NCBI GenBank assembly: GCA_009903935.1
Contig: WYEG01000017.1
Location: 1-37,478, forward strand
DNA from: Caldimicrobium sp.
GTDB lineage: Bacteria; Desulfobacterota; Thermodesulfobacteria; Thermodesulfobacteriales; Thermodesulfobacteriaceae
Direction of reading: 5' to 3'
DNA length: 37,478 bases
Shown piece by piece: positions 1,781 through 29,612 of the stretch. Position 1 is the stretch's first letter. Every line of letters begins with the position of its first letter. Both the position numbers and the translations under genes were made by a program. The notes below the pieces were generated by a model. That model was not told where the DNA came from, ran no database searches, and worked only from the letters and a program-made list of their open reading frames with translations.

Positions 1781-2176
1781 ATGGAGCTTCAACCAGAGGG
1801 GACCAAAGAAGTAGTCTATCGTATAGACCCCTTTTCGATCATATTTCGCGAACTCGACCTTATTCATTCTGAAATAAGGGAAATCAAGTCTGAAATAGTC
1901 TTCCTTCATCAAAGGATTGATGAGACGAATAAGCGGGTCGATGAGACGAATAAACGGATTGATGAAATGAATAAAAGGATTGATGAAATGAATATAGCGA
2001 TCAATAAAAGGATTGATGAGACGAATAAACGGATCGACGAGACGAACCTTAGGATTGATGCCCTTGCAAGCGATATTAACAGAAGATTAGACAAGCTCTT
2101 TTTAGTTGTAATCATAAACCTTATCGCCATAATAGGCTTTTTGTTTAAAATTGTTTTAGACGGATTGATAAAATAG
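1781..2176 (+). CDS. Small coiled-coil protein with C-terminal membrane anchor
   Basis: No confident family. The 131-residue product begins MELQPEGTKEVVYRIDPF. About residues 45-100 form a run of seven-residue repeats of the type RIDETNK (eight near-copies, one phase break at AINK), visible in the DNA as 21-bp imperfect tandem repeats. A hydrophobic segment near residues 107-127 (LFLVVIINLIAIIGFLFKIV) is followed by a short tail, so it should be tail-anchored with the coiled coil in the cytosol. The start at 1781 is chosen because an upstream in-frame ATG at 1706 lies before the promoter and inside the repeat. It resembles the larger protein encoded at 5363. XhlA-like or DUF1640-like proteins have a similar plan, but that is architecture, not homology I can show. 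Confidence 0.7.
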   Translation: MELQPEGTKEVVYRIDPFSIIFRELDLIHSEIREIKSEIVFLHQRIDETNKRVDETNKRIDEMNKRIDEMNIAINKRIDETNKRIDETNLRIDALASDINRRLDKLFLVVIINLIAIIGFLFKIVLDGLIK

Positions 2177-2195
2177 GTAAAAAGCATCCCTTTTG

Positions 2196-2738
2196 TACGC
2201 CCCCGAGCCTCTTTTTTTGTCACCCCGAGCATCTCTCTTTGTCACCCCGAGCATCTCTCTTTGTCACCCCGAGCATCTCTCTTTGTCACCCCGAGCGTAA
2301 GCGAGGGGTCCCTCGGCACTTACGTGCCTCGGGACGACAGGGTAGGGGATGTCGCCCCGAGCCGACAGGCGAGGGGTCCCTCGGTATTGCTCGGCAGGAC
2401 AGGGCAGGAATGTCACCCGGACCCCTTTTTCTGTCTCCCCGAACGAAGTGAGGGGTCTCCCCTTTATTCTTTCCCTACCACAGGATGGAGATTTCTAGCT
2501 TCGCTCGAAACGACAGAAAAGGGATGTCACCCCGAGCATCTCTCTTTGTCACCCCGAGCGAAGTGAGGGGTCCCTCGGCACTTACGTGCCTCGGGACGAC
2601 AGGGTAGGGGATGTCACCCCGAGGCGTCAGCCGAGGGGTCTCCCCCTTCATGTCATTCCGAGGCGTAAGCCGAGGAATCTCCATTTCATGACCAGTGAGG
2701 GATGCCTTGCTACGCTCGGCAGGACAGGGTGGTCCCTC
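2196..2738. repeat. Dispersed hairpin repeat array B (long, compound)
   Basis: This occupies most of the 787-bp gap between the first coiled-coil gene and the porin. It contains at least two full hairpin sets, including 2289-2308 (CCCC-GA-GC, loop GTAA, GC-GA-GGGG), 2308-2335 (same design on the other strand), and 2655-2678 (ATTCC-GA-GGC, loop GTAA, GCC-GA-GGAAT). Open frames here give the low-complexity translation HPERSEGS and similar peptides in several frames, which I regard as repeat artefacts. No clear terminal inverted repeats were found, so this appears to be a pile-up of degraded copies. Between 2739 and 2865 I see nothing but AT-rich sequence. Confidence 0.8.
2219..2284. repeat. Three exact 22-bp tandem repeats inside array B
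   Basis: A 22-bp unit beginning GTCACCCCGAGC and ending ATCTCTCTTT occurs three times head to tail (2219-2240, 2241-2262, 2263-2284). The next copy changes into the normal hairpin sequence. A single further copy lies near 2526-2547. The unit carries only the 5' half of the hairpin stem, so the expansion appears to be slippage or unequal exchange within the larger array. Confidence 0.85.
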
Positions 2739-2865
2739 TAAAGCTTACCAGGCTTCAAAGTTTAACTTTTGCCAAAAAATACCGAAAAATAATAAAAAAG
2801 AAAGAAAGGATGATGTTGTTCAGGAATATTTCCGATTTTTGCCTAAAAATAACTTTTGAAAAGGC

Positions 2866-5062: not shown

Positions 5063-5113
5063 ACGCCTTCAGCTCATTGTATTTACCCTTAAGTTATTCC
5101 TGTTCTTTCCTGA

Positions 5114-5316
5114 GGCTGTTCAAAAAATGTTTTTGTGAGAGCCCTCCTGCTGTCGCCCCGAGCCTATTTTTTTGTCACCCCGAAGCGTAAGCGAGGGGTC
5201 CCTCGGCGCTTGCGCGCCTCGGGAGGACAAAGTGGAGGGGGACGCCGTCCCGAACGAAGTGAGGGATGCCTCGCTTTCGCTCGGCACGACAGAATAAGGG
5301 GCTTTTTTGAACAGCC
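5114..5316. mobile_element. Complete MITE-like element D (hairpin repeat unit)
   Basis: This is a 203-bp unit bounded by a perfect 14-bp inverted repeat: GGCTGTTCAAAAAA at 5114-5127 and TTTTTTGAACAGCC at 5303-5316. Inside are four hairpins of alternating strand polarity: 5178-5198, 5199-5224, 5249-5265 and 5268-5285. The unit has no coding capacity. Imperfect direct repeats flank it (5100-5113 and 5318-5331, 11 of 14 bases equal), consistent with an aged target-site duplication. With its flanks it fills the whole gap between nikR and the next gene. The ends resemble those of IS families with GGCTGT-type termini, but no parent transposase is in the window. Confidence 0.75.
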
Positions 5317-5327
5317 ACTGTTTTTCC

Positions 5328-5355
5328 TTGACAAATCCTAAAGATTGTTTAATTT
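5328..5355 (+). promoter_or_regulatory. Promoter of the second coiled-coil gene, leaderless configuration
   Basis: TTGACA (5328-5333) with TAATTT (5350-5355) at a 16-bp spacing; alternative -10 boxes overlap it, so the exact one is uncertain. The expected transcription start is at or just before the ATG at 5363, and there is no Shine-Dalgarno sequence. The -35 box overlaps the right-hand direct repeat flanking element D. Confidence 0.55.
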
Positions 5356-5362
5356 AATGTTT

Positions 5363-6064
5363 ATGGAGCCTCAAACTACCGCTGAGATTACTCCTGAATA
5401 CATAAAACAGCTTATCTATTCTATTCTTCCCGAAGTCTTAGCTCAATACCGTGAGGATAGAGAAAGAGCCTTTTACAATCAACTTCTCGATAGATTGGTC
5501 CGTTTAGAAGAGGAGCTTAAAGCACTTAGAATAGAGATGAACATCAGGTTTGATGCTCTGATTAAGGAGATGAACACAAGGTTTGATGCTGTCATTAGAG
5601 AGATGAACGCGAGGTTTGAAGCTCAGAAACAAGAAAGCGATGCTAAATTTGAAGCTATAAACGCAAGGTTTGAAGCTTTGACTAAGGAGATGAATACGAG
5701 GTTTGAAGCTCTCATCAAGGAGATGAATACGAGGTTTGAAGCTTTGAAACAGGATAGCGATGCAAAATTTGAAGCAATAAATACGAGGTTTGAAGCGCAG
5801 AAACAAGAAAGCGATGCTAAATTTGAAGCCATAAACGCAAGATTTGAAGCCTTGACTAAGGAGATGAATACGAGGTTTGATACTCTCATCAAAGAGATGA
5901 ATACGAGGTTTGAAGCGCAGAAACAAGAAAGCGATGCTAAATTTGAAGCTATAAACGCAAGGTTTGAAGCTTTGGATAAAAGGCTGAGTTTTCTTCAGTG
6001 GTTGATTGTCTTTGGTTTTACCTTTATTTCTGTGGTCATCACTCTCCTTAATTTCTTCAAGTAG
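5363..6064 (+). CDS. Long coiled-coil, tail-anchored repeat protein
   Basis: No confident family. The 233-residue product (start at MEPQTTAEITPEY) consists from about residue 45 to 205 of eleven-residue units of the form RFEALIKEMNT or RFEAQKQESDA, interrupted regularly by seven-residue units KFEAINA. The composite RFEAQKQESDAKFEAINA occurs three times, almost identical in DNA too, showing recent internal duplication. Hendecads predict a nearly straight, right-handed coiled coil. Residues about 210-231 (LQWLIVFGFTFISVVITLLN) form one membrane span followed by FFK. The start at 5363 is preferred over an in-frame TTG at 5345, which lies within the promoter. It shares plan, promoter type, repeat neighbour and the start ATGGAGC with the gene at 1781. 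DUF1640-like function is possible but unproven. Confidence 0.75.
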   Translation: MEPQTTAEITPEYIKQLIYSILPEVLAQYREDRERAFYNQLLDRLVRLEEELKALRIEMNIRFDALIKEMNTRFDAVIREMNARFEAQKQESDAKFEAINARFEALTKEMNTRFEALIKEMNTRFEALKQDSDAKFEAINTRFEAQKQESDAKFEAINARFEALTKEMNTRFDTLIKEMNTRFEAQKQESDAKFEAINARFEALDKRLSFLQWLIVFGFTFISVVITLLNFFK

Positions 6065-12776: not shown

Positions 12777-12978
12777 GAGGCTGTTTTAATAATTTGTGCA
12801 AGCCCCCATGTGTCACCCAGAGCCGTCTTTTTTGCCGCCCCGAGCCCTTTTTTGTCGCCCCGAGCCCTTTTTTGTCACCCCGAGCGAAGCGAGGGGTCCC
12901 TCGGCGCTTGCGTGCCTCGGGAAGACAGGGTGGGAAATGTCGCCCCGAGCGAAGCGAGGGGTCCCTCGCTACAATCAG
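12777..12978. repeat. Copy E of the dispersed hairpin repeat
   Basis: The left end GAGGCTGTTTTAATAATTTG (12777-12796) followed by TGCAAGCCC matches the left end of the copy at 29400 almost base for base. Three hairpins follow, including two identical CCCC-GA-GC-GAA-GC-GA-GGGG structures separated by one of opposite polarity. The right terminal inverted repeat is not recognisable, and I see no direct repeat around it, so the copy is probably truncated on the right. It takes up most of the 364-bp region between the divergent dnaN and perR/fur genes. Confidence 0.75.
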
Positions 12979-29160: not shown

Positions 29161-29325
29161 TTAAGATTTGCAGCTCTTCTTGCCCCTTCCTTTGCAAGAG
29201 GAGGAAGATTCTCCCTGTCCTTCAGCTTTGGTCATGGTGTTTTCTGCCCCGCAGGATGGGCACTTCTTTGGTTTACACCTTGATTCTTTCGTTGCTCCGC
29301 ATTGACTACACTTCCAAACAGCCAT
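29161..29325 (-). CDS. RCKP-type rubredoxin-like small protein
   Basis: A 54-residue protein begins MAVWKCSQCGATKESRCKP and has four Cys in two CxxC knuckles (C6/C9 and C22/C25) around the RCKP motif at residues 16-19. This is the pattern of rubredoxin-like domains found alone or at the C-terminus of rubrerythrins; it should bind Fe or Zn. The tail is rich in Ser, Lys and Gly with two more Cys (C44, C52). The start is secure, because AAAAGGAGGT lies just upstream of the ATG. It is convergent with gspF. A role in electron transfer or oxidative stress would fit an anaerobe carrying a PerR-type regulator, but no direct link is visible. Confidence 0.8.
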   Translation of the reverse strand: MAVWKCSQCGATKESRCKPKKCPSCGAENTMTKAEGQGESSSSCKGRGKKSCKS

Positions 29326-29360: not shown

Positions 29361-29388
29361 AAGATAACAAATCTAAAATTAAAAGCAA
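29361..29388 (-). promoter_or_regulatory. Candidate promoter of the RCKP gene
   Basis: On the minus strand, TTGCTT (29388-29383), 16-bp spacer, TATCTT (29366-29361). The left target-site repeat of element F begins one base upstream of the -35 box (29390), so the element has separated this promoter from the upstream ttcA-like gene. Confidence 0.5.
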
Positions 29389-29389
29389 C

Positions 29390-29401
29390 AGGTTTATTCG
29401 A
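29390..29401. repeat. Direct repeat flanking element F (left copy)
   Basis: AGGTTTATTCGA is identical to 29601-29612. The right copy contains the last sense codon and the stop codon of the ttcA-like gene. This is what a target-site duplication at the end of that gene would look like. Confidence 0.8.
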
Positions 29402-29600
29402 GGCTGTTTTAAAAATTTGTGCAAGCCCACTTTTTTGTCGCCCCGAGCTTCCTTTTTTGTCGCCCCGAGCGAAGCAAGGGGTCCCTCGGCACTTGCGTGC
29501 CTCGGGAAGACATCCCGAAGCGCCGTCCCGAACGAAGTGAGGGATGCACGGCTTACGCTCGGCAGGACAAAATAGAGGGGGACTTTTTGCACAGCCCCAT
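29402..29600. mobile_element. Complete MITE-like element F (hairpin repeat unit)
   Basis: The 199-bp unit lies between perfect 12-bp direct repeats. Its left end reads GGCTGTTTTAAAAATTTGTG and its right end GACTTTTTGCACAGCCCCAT, partly inverted relative to each other (GGCTGT...AAAAA against TTTTT...ACAGCC). The interior has the same hairpin order and polarity as element D: CCCC-GA-GC-GAA-GC at about 29463, an opposite-strand hairpin with a GCAA loop at about 29481-29507, GTCCC-GA-AC-GAA-GT-GA-GGG at about 29525, and a degraded fourth. It has no coding capacity. It is inserted exactly at the 3' end of the ttcA-like gene and fills the gap to the RCKP gene. Confidence 0.8.
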
Positions 29601-29612
29601 AGGTTTATTCGA
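29601..29612. repeat. Direct repeat flanking element F (right copy)
   Basis: AGGTTTATTCGA, identical to 29390-29401. It includes the stop codon (read on the minus strand as GAATAA) of the ttcA-like gene. Confidence 0.8.

Follow-up and report, generated by a model that had tools for sequence, protein, structure and literature searches.

A non-autonomous MITE-like family of Caldimicrobium sp. that probably inserts at a fixed point within −35 boxes and rebuilds them

Our analysis of a short repeat unit in a 37,478-nt stretch of Caldimicrobium sp. DNA (hereafter the window) reveals that the unit belongs to a MITE-like family that is present throughout the host genome and lies next to promoters. 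As read from the sequence, the element ends, the target duplications, a fixed cut, outward-directed pairs of −35 and −10 boxes, neighboring tRNA genes, and insertion in both orientations point to a common origin of these copies: a non-autonomous MITE family, mobilized by a transposase acting in trans, with a fixed cut T^TGACA inside the −35 box and a target duplication that rebuilds the box. We assign this reading a probability of about 0.85.

The copy that drew attention to the family had been described, in a sequence-only reading of the window, as a unit at 29390–29612 with inverted ends between perfect 12-bp direct repeats. Re-reading of the sequence reproduces this description: the 12-mer AGGTTTATTCGA is present on both sides exactly where it had been placed (Table 1), 199 bp lie in between, and the ends are GGCTGT and ACAGCC in inverted orientation. 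In the register that applies family-wide, the element ends are located 2 bp further out, at GRGGCTGT, and the copy is still 199 bp long. The target duplication in this register is ACAGGTTTATTC/ATAGGTTTATTC, 12 bp with one mismatch; the perfect 12-mer of the earlier reading includes the GA of the element end. The copy is inserted between the stop codon of a PP-loop gene and the putative promoter of a small gene. The putative promoter, TTGCTT-N16-TATCTT, is weak, and the first T of its −35 box coincides with duplication position 29388.

The sister unit at 5114–5316 (203 bp) also bears out the earlier description, with the perfect 14-bp inverted repeat GGCTGTTCAAAAAA and, outside it, the imperfect direct repeats TGTTCTTTCCT and TGTTTTTCCT. 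Two coiled-coil-like genes of the window, at 1781–2176 and 5345–6064, contain internal repeats of 21–33 bp, and an element copy with a TTGACA box precedes each of them. The two insertions look independent, because their flanks differ.

Table 1. Element copies and associated features in the window
Feature	Position	Strand	Remark
Element copy, left end alone recognizable	1450–1737	−	perfect −35 box TTGACA at 1746–1751, outside the left end
Array of same-kind palindromes without element ends	2176–2740	.	
Left copy of imperfect target duplication, TGTTCTTTCCT	5101–5111	.	
Second complete element copy, including the terminal 2 bp on each side	5112–5318	+	14-bp perfect inverted repeat, 5114–5127 and 5303–5316
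Right copy of imperfect target duplication, TGTTTTTCCT	5319–5328	.	
TTGACA (−35 box), immediately after the right duplication	5328–5333	+	leads to the coiled-coil-like gene 5345–6064
Element copy, left end alone recognizable, right part truncated	12777–12970	+	
Gene for a small zinc-ribbon-like protein (54 aa, two CxxC motifs)	29164–29325	−	downstream of the putative promoter
Putative −10 box TATCTT	29361–29366	−	16 bp after the −35 box
Putative −35 box TTGCTT (weak)	29383–29388	−	insertion cut T^TGCTT
Left copy of target duplication, ACAGGTTTATTC	29388–29399	.	earlier 12-mer, 29390–29401
Complete element copy, left-to-right orientation, 199 bp	29400–29598	+	
Left terminal inverted repeat, GAGGCTGTTTTAAAAA	29400–29415	+	
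Right terminal inverted repeat, minus-strand reading GGGGCTGTGCAAAAAG	29583–29598	−	
Right copy of target duplication, ATAGGTTTATTC	29599–29610	.	earlier 12-mer, 29601–29612

The host genome is a 1.56-Mb draft in 68 contigs, in which some copies are cut at contig ends, and the genome-wide figures given here rest on DNA stretches fetched around element copies. A blastn search of the draft with either unit (199 bp or 203 bp) returned more than 80 matches, and the end motif GGCTGTNNNAAAAA occurs 53 times in the genome, compared with 3 times for a reversed control motif. Complete copies were identified as paired, inward-facing ends enclosing the palindromic core, with spurious pairs removed. At least 32 are present, each 146–455 bp long, with the boundaries 5′-GRGGCTGTT...AACAGCCYC-3′; the commonest flank offset sets the ends 2 bp outside GGCTGT. 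Flank pairs scoring at least 7 are present in 24 of the 32 complete copies, versus a mean of 2.2 and a maximum of 6 in 200 flank permutations. Consistent ends and flanking repeats thus recur across the genome copies. The elements carry no transposase gene, and none is seen in the window, as had been stated before.

The inverted repeats common to many copies, the target-site duplications, and the short size without a transposase gene are those of MITEs, and the element is a real MITE-like family. The assignment is kept although no autonomous partner was found in the collections searched, because old MITE families commonly lack one. Other bacterial MITEs (Correia and others, reviewed in PMC10969869) are likewise short and non-coding, with inverted ends and target duplications, and located near genes; the promoters described there are carried by the element, whereas the present family has the promoter as its target, outside the element.

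The interior of the element consists of REP-like palindromes such as CCCCGAGCGAAGCGAGGGG, and copy length varies mainly through the number of units such as TTTTTTGTCGCCCCGAGCCCC and of whole palindromes. Clustering of the core palindrome in the genome yields about 48 loci: 25 are located in complete elements, 10 are accompanied by one end, and 13 are accompanied by neither. The sequence-only reading is therefore supported in proposing a mobile, MITE-like unit that has defined inverted ends, target-site duplications, and many copies. It is only half right in regarding the palindromes as cargo and never as free-standing, since 13 of 48 core loci, and the array at 2176–2740 of the window, have no element ends. 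REP and BIME sequences resemble the element interior in palindromes of this type, and differ from it in that at least half of the loci in the present family have their palindromes enclosed in a unit with inverted ends and target duplications. If a Y1 (RAYT) transposase moved REP/BIME-like palindromes, and the apparent ends and repeats were secondary, palindromes that also occur without ends and vary in number would be accommodated; however, inverted ends with target duplications are not a Y1 signature, and no Y1_Tnp domain (PF01797) was detected in this genome. This explanation has a very slight probability and is refuted for the element as a whole, although the end-less palindromes could still be moved by a RAYT enzyme.

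Two further observations concern the palindromes. A second palindrome type, GTCATTTCGAGCGTAGCGAGAAATCTCC, is located inside one element (C67:2242–2459) and among the end-less palindromes at 2480–2690 of the window, as would be expected if palindromes were swapped, or inserted as modules in their own right. An end-less array at C63:35868–36014 (locus L012) apparently falls inside a long gene or at its margin and is possibly read in frame.

The feature that the sequence-only reading missed is the targeting of −35 boxes. Promoters played no part in the selection of copies, which relied on ends and core. In 30 of 32 copies, the best −35-like hexamer starts 10, 11, or 12 bp beyond ACAGCC on one side (8–10 bp when counted from the GRGG end), and the other side is flat. 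Specifically, 26 strong −35 boxes are observed at 10–12 bp, where more distant positions of the same flanks give an expectation of 0.8, and exact TTGACA is observed 14 times at this distance, compared with 2 times in 9,600 background positions. Five single-ended copies, which are outside the main count, have a strong box at 10–13 bp. A −10 box matching at least 4 of 6 bases, 16–18 bp after the −35 box, is present at 25 of 32 target sites, versus 20 of 93 TTGACA sequences elsewhere in the fetched DNA (p ~2e-8); its frequency at target sites is no different from that at ten intergenic TTGACA sites without an element. Eight copies have a tRNA gene directly downstream (Leu, Met, Met, Lys, Val, Leu, Gln, and Lys). 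The elements face the promoters in both orientations (21 right, 11 left), and complete copies occupy intergenic or gene-end positions. Three copies fit poorly: C52:7638, with TTCACA and no duplication; C67:2242, with no duplication; and the window copy at 29400–29598, with its weak box TTGCTT.

The junctions define the position at which the DNA is cut. On the distal side, 30 of 32 copies have T three bases before GGCTGT, with C in front of it in 20. TTGACA starts with this T, which places the promoter-side cut at T^TGACA. Judged by the spacing, the duplications measure 9 bp in 9 copies, 10 bp in 13, and 11 bp in 8, in agreement with the alignments of the best-preserved copies; overall, duplications are usually 9–11 bp, with outliers of 12, ~22, and 70 bp, and the ~22-bp and 70-bp outliers keep the promoter-side cut T^TGAC. 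For the ~22-bp case (C41:427), the box TTGGGC in the automatic table was rejected as lying on the wrong side; TTGACT, behind the 22-bp repeat, is consistent with the family. The 70-bp duplication (C4:33163) is identical at 69 of 70 positions and ends GCCCTCT^TGACT. Its far boundary reads GGTCA, corresponding to TGACC on the other strand, in a single case and with a boundary ambiguous by 1 nt; by sequence, each end may have used the −35 box of one of two divergent promoters.

In the present copy at no fewer than two sites (C28 and C46), the distal duplication is directly preceded by an older element end (ACAGCC or ACACCC, then TC), as if a second element had used the target site again. Such re-use would be possible because insertion restores the −35 box. 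Elsewhere, at C1:37045–37086 (locus L097) near a contig end, two element ends face apart with 14 bp between them, possibly representing two insertions at one promoter.

Two rival explanations were considered. The first is an ordinary MITE that chooses no target and survives where it is harmless, between genes and before promoters. The intergenic or gene-end location of complete copies would be as expected, as would the equal frequency of −10 boxes at intergenic TTGACA sites free of elements, but selection leaves unexplained a cut that is fixed to one base of the −35 box in nearly all copies, including those with 22-bp and 70-bp duplications. Already contradicted by the position data, this explanation is very improbable. 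In the second, promoters retain the units as cis-regulatory components (A/T-rich upstream element, insulator, or terminator), with mobility being incidental. By inference, the A/T runs of the element end are positioned roughly where a distal UP element would be, and the unit folds better than shuffled sequence (z ~ −3.1 as DNA and −3.2 as RNA). A retained regulatory part is, however, at odds with the use of both orientations toward promoters, the size range of 146–455 bp, the decay of many copies, and a frequency of terminators not above chance, and we regard it as improbable.

The known systems closest to the preferred reading, insertion by a promoter-targeting transposase acting in trans, include elements of the Mutator superfamily. 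TnGBS/ISLre2 (p-MULT 3) and the ISKra4 group (p-MULT 4) insert 13–17 bp upstream of the −35 box, generate 8–9 bp repeats, and insert in both orientations when their ends are alike (Guerillot et al. 2014, PMC3942029). The present family behaves similarly, inserting at a fixed distance from σ70/σA promoters, with short repeats and in both orientations. It differs in having a repeat that abuts the box, a cut at T^TGACA, repeats of 9–11 bp with outliers of ~22 and 70 bp, and no encoded transposase. Because the spacing and the repeat length differ, the family is not filed under p-MULT 3/4, although the behavior is alike.

A MITE of such p-MULT 3/4 transposases (TnGBS, ISLre2, or the ISKra4 group), with the spacing shifted, is a narrower form of the preferred reading in which the enzyme is named, and it is quite possible, at somewhat less than even odds. 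Precedent comes from p-MULT 3/4 themselves, published bacterial elements that insert upstream of σA promoters and whose members with near-identical ends insert both ways, as the present family does; in addition, 8–9 bp is close to 9–11 bp, and ends with a terminal G/C pair fit (PMC3942029). The published distance of 13–17 bp contrasts with 8–10 bp from the GRGG end and a cut inside the box, the published inverted repeats of 18–39 bp contrast with ~14–16 bp here, and no ISKra4-family transposase was detected in this genome.

Other insertion sequences resemble the family in single features. The ends of IS256 (p-MULT 1) have the loose pattern GGNNNTGT in common with the ends of the present elements, and IS256 is common in the host's family. 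IS256 insertion has been published as random (PMC3942029), with 8–9 bp repeats and no promoter preference, in contrast to the 9–11 bp repeats and −35 targeting of the present family. IS1634 and IS1549 generate long, variable target repeats (PMC2266710), comparable to the occasional 22-bp and 70-bp duplications, whereas the usual repeats here are 9–11 bp; DDE_Tnp_1, the Pfam transposase domain looked for as representative of them, was not detected in this genome, and past mobilization is still compatible with its present absence.

Searches of this genome, genomes of the order, GTDB contigs, and viral contigs yielded no transposase associated with such ends. Clear enrichment of the general end motif is confined to this genome, and neither GTDB contigs nor the order's 40 other genomes contain the left-end pattern. 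The end-pattern search, covering the 41 genomes, GTDB contigs, and viral contigs, gave three isolated matches in all: left- or right-end patterns in Microvirga, a Bacteroidales MAG, and Thalassobacillus, which have no second end in the fetched DNA and were attributed to chance. Y1, DDE_Tnp_1, and ISKra4 transposases were not detected in this genome, and the remnants that were detected are decayed IS256-type fragments; one, an IS256-family gene (G000:C19:9008–9947, locus L185), is in two pieces (73 and 219 aa) and apparently decayed. IS256 was rejected as the source: about 30 copies in two relatives (G020 and G036) have short repeats and, by inspection, no −35 box at the junction, and their ends are just loosely similar to those of the present elements. 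A Mutator-like gene in another relative (G034) proved to be of the ISH6 family.

The core palindrome is present in one relative of another genus (G033), without the element ends. Three further genomes of the phylum contain exact core palindromes; these were set aside, as those read are in different repeat contexts without these ends. Genome G078 (loci L200, L203, and L206) contains a different multi-copy hairpin repeat, GCATAATGCGGCAGTTGAGCAGTGCCCGAAGGGCATCTG..., which also ends in CCCCGAGCGAAGCGAGGGG. Plasmids, phages, and Rfam gave no match to the element, and literature searches on the core palindrome and on MITEs at −35 boxes found nothing relevant.

In the mechanism that we propose, a transposase supplied in trans, presumably of the DDE type, would join the element 5′-GRGGCTGTT...AACAGCCYC-3′ to DNA containing a σ70-type −35 box. 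The first strand transfer would occur at the fixed point T^TGACA inside the box, and the second would occur on the opposite strand, usually 9–11 bp and rarely far more upstream. Repair would then duplicate the stretch between the two cuts. The first T of TTGACA closes the duplicated stretch, so that the box would be rebuilt, leaving the promoter whole and the site reusable. The joint lies inside the −35 hexamer, where σ region 4 would be seated, and we therefore lean toward recognition of the −35 DNA over recognition of bound RNA polymerase; the data do not separate the two, because insertions into genes would be lost to selection. A more specific version, which we put forward tentatively and consider rather doubtful, is an undescribed transposase for which CTTGAC directs the transfer at T^TGACA and the second cut is loose, with one box used per end where divergent boxes are near each other, as suggested by the 70-bp duplication at C4:33163, whose other boundary is T^TGACC on the opposite strand. 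If this were true, promoters would be reusable, self-restoring landing sites.

To our knowledge, few bacterial transposons select promoters, and in those published the joint lies upstream of the −35 box. Insertion at one exact spot of the −35 box, with the box rebuilt, is a precision of targeting known for few bacterial transposons. A family with its joint inside the −35 hexamer, and with that hexamer nonetheless restored, would show how a compact genome can house a transposon while its genes and promoters stay intact. Whether the transposase reads promoter DNA or bound RNA polymerase becomes a testable question, and tRNA promoters that carry an insert offer natural test cases for distinguishing DNA from polymerase recognition.
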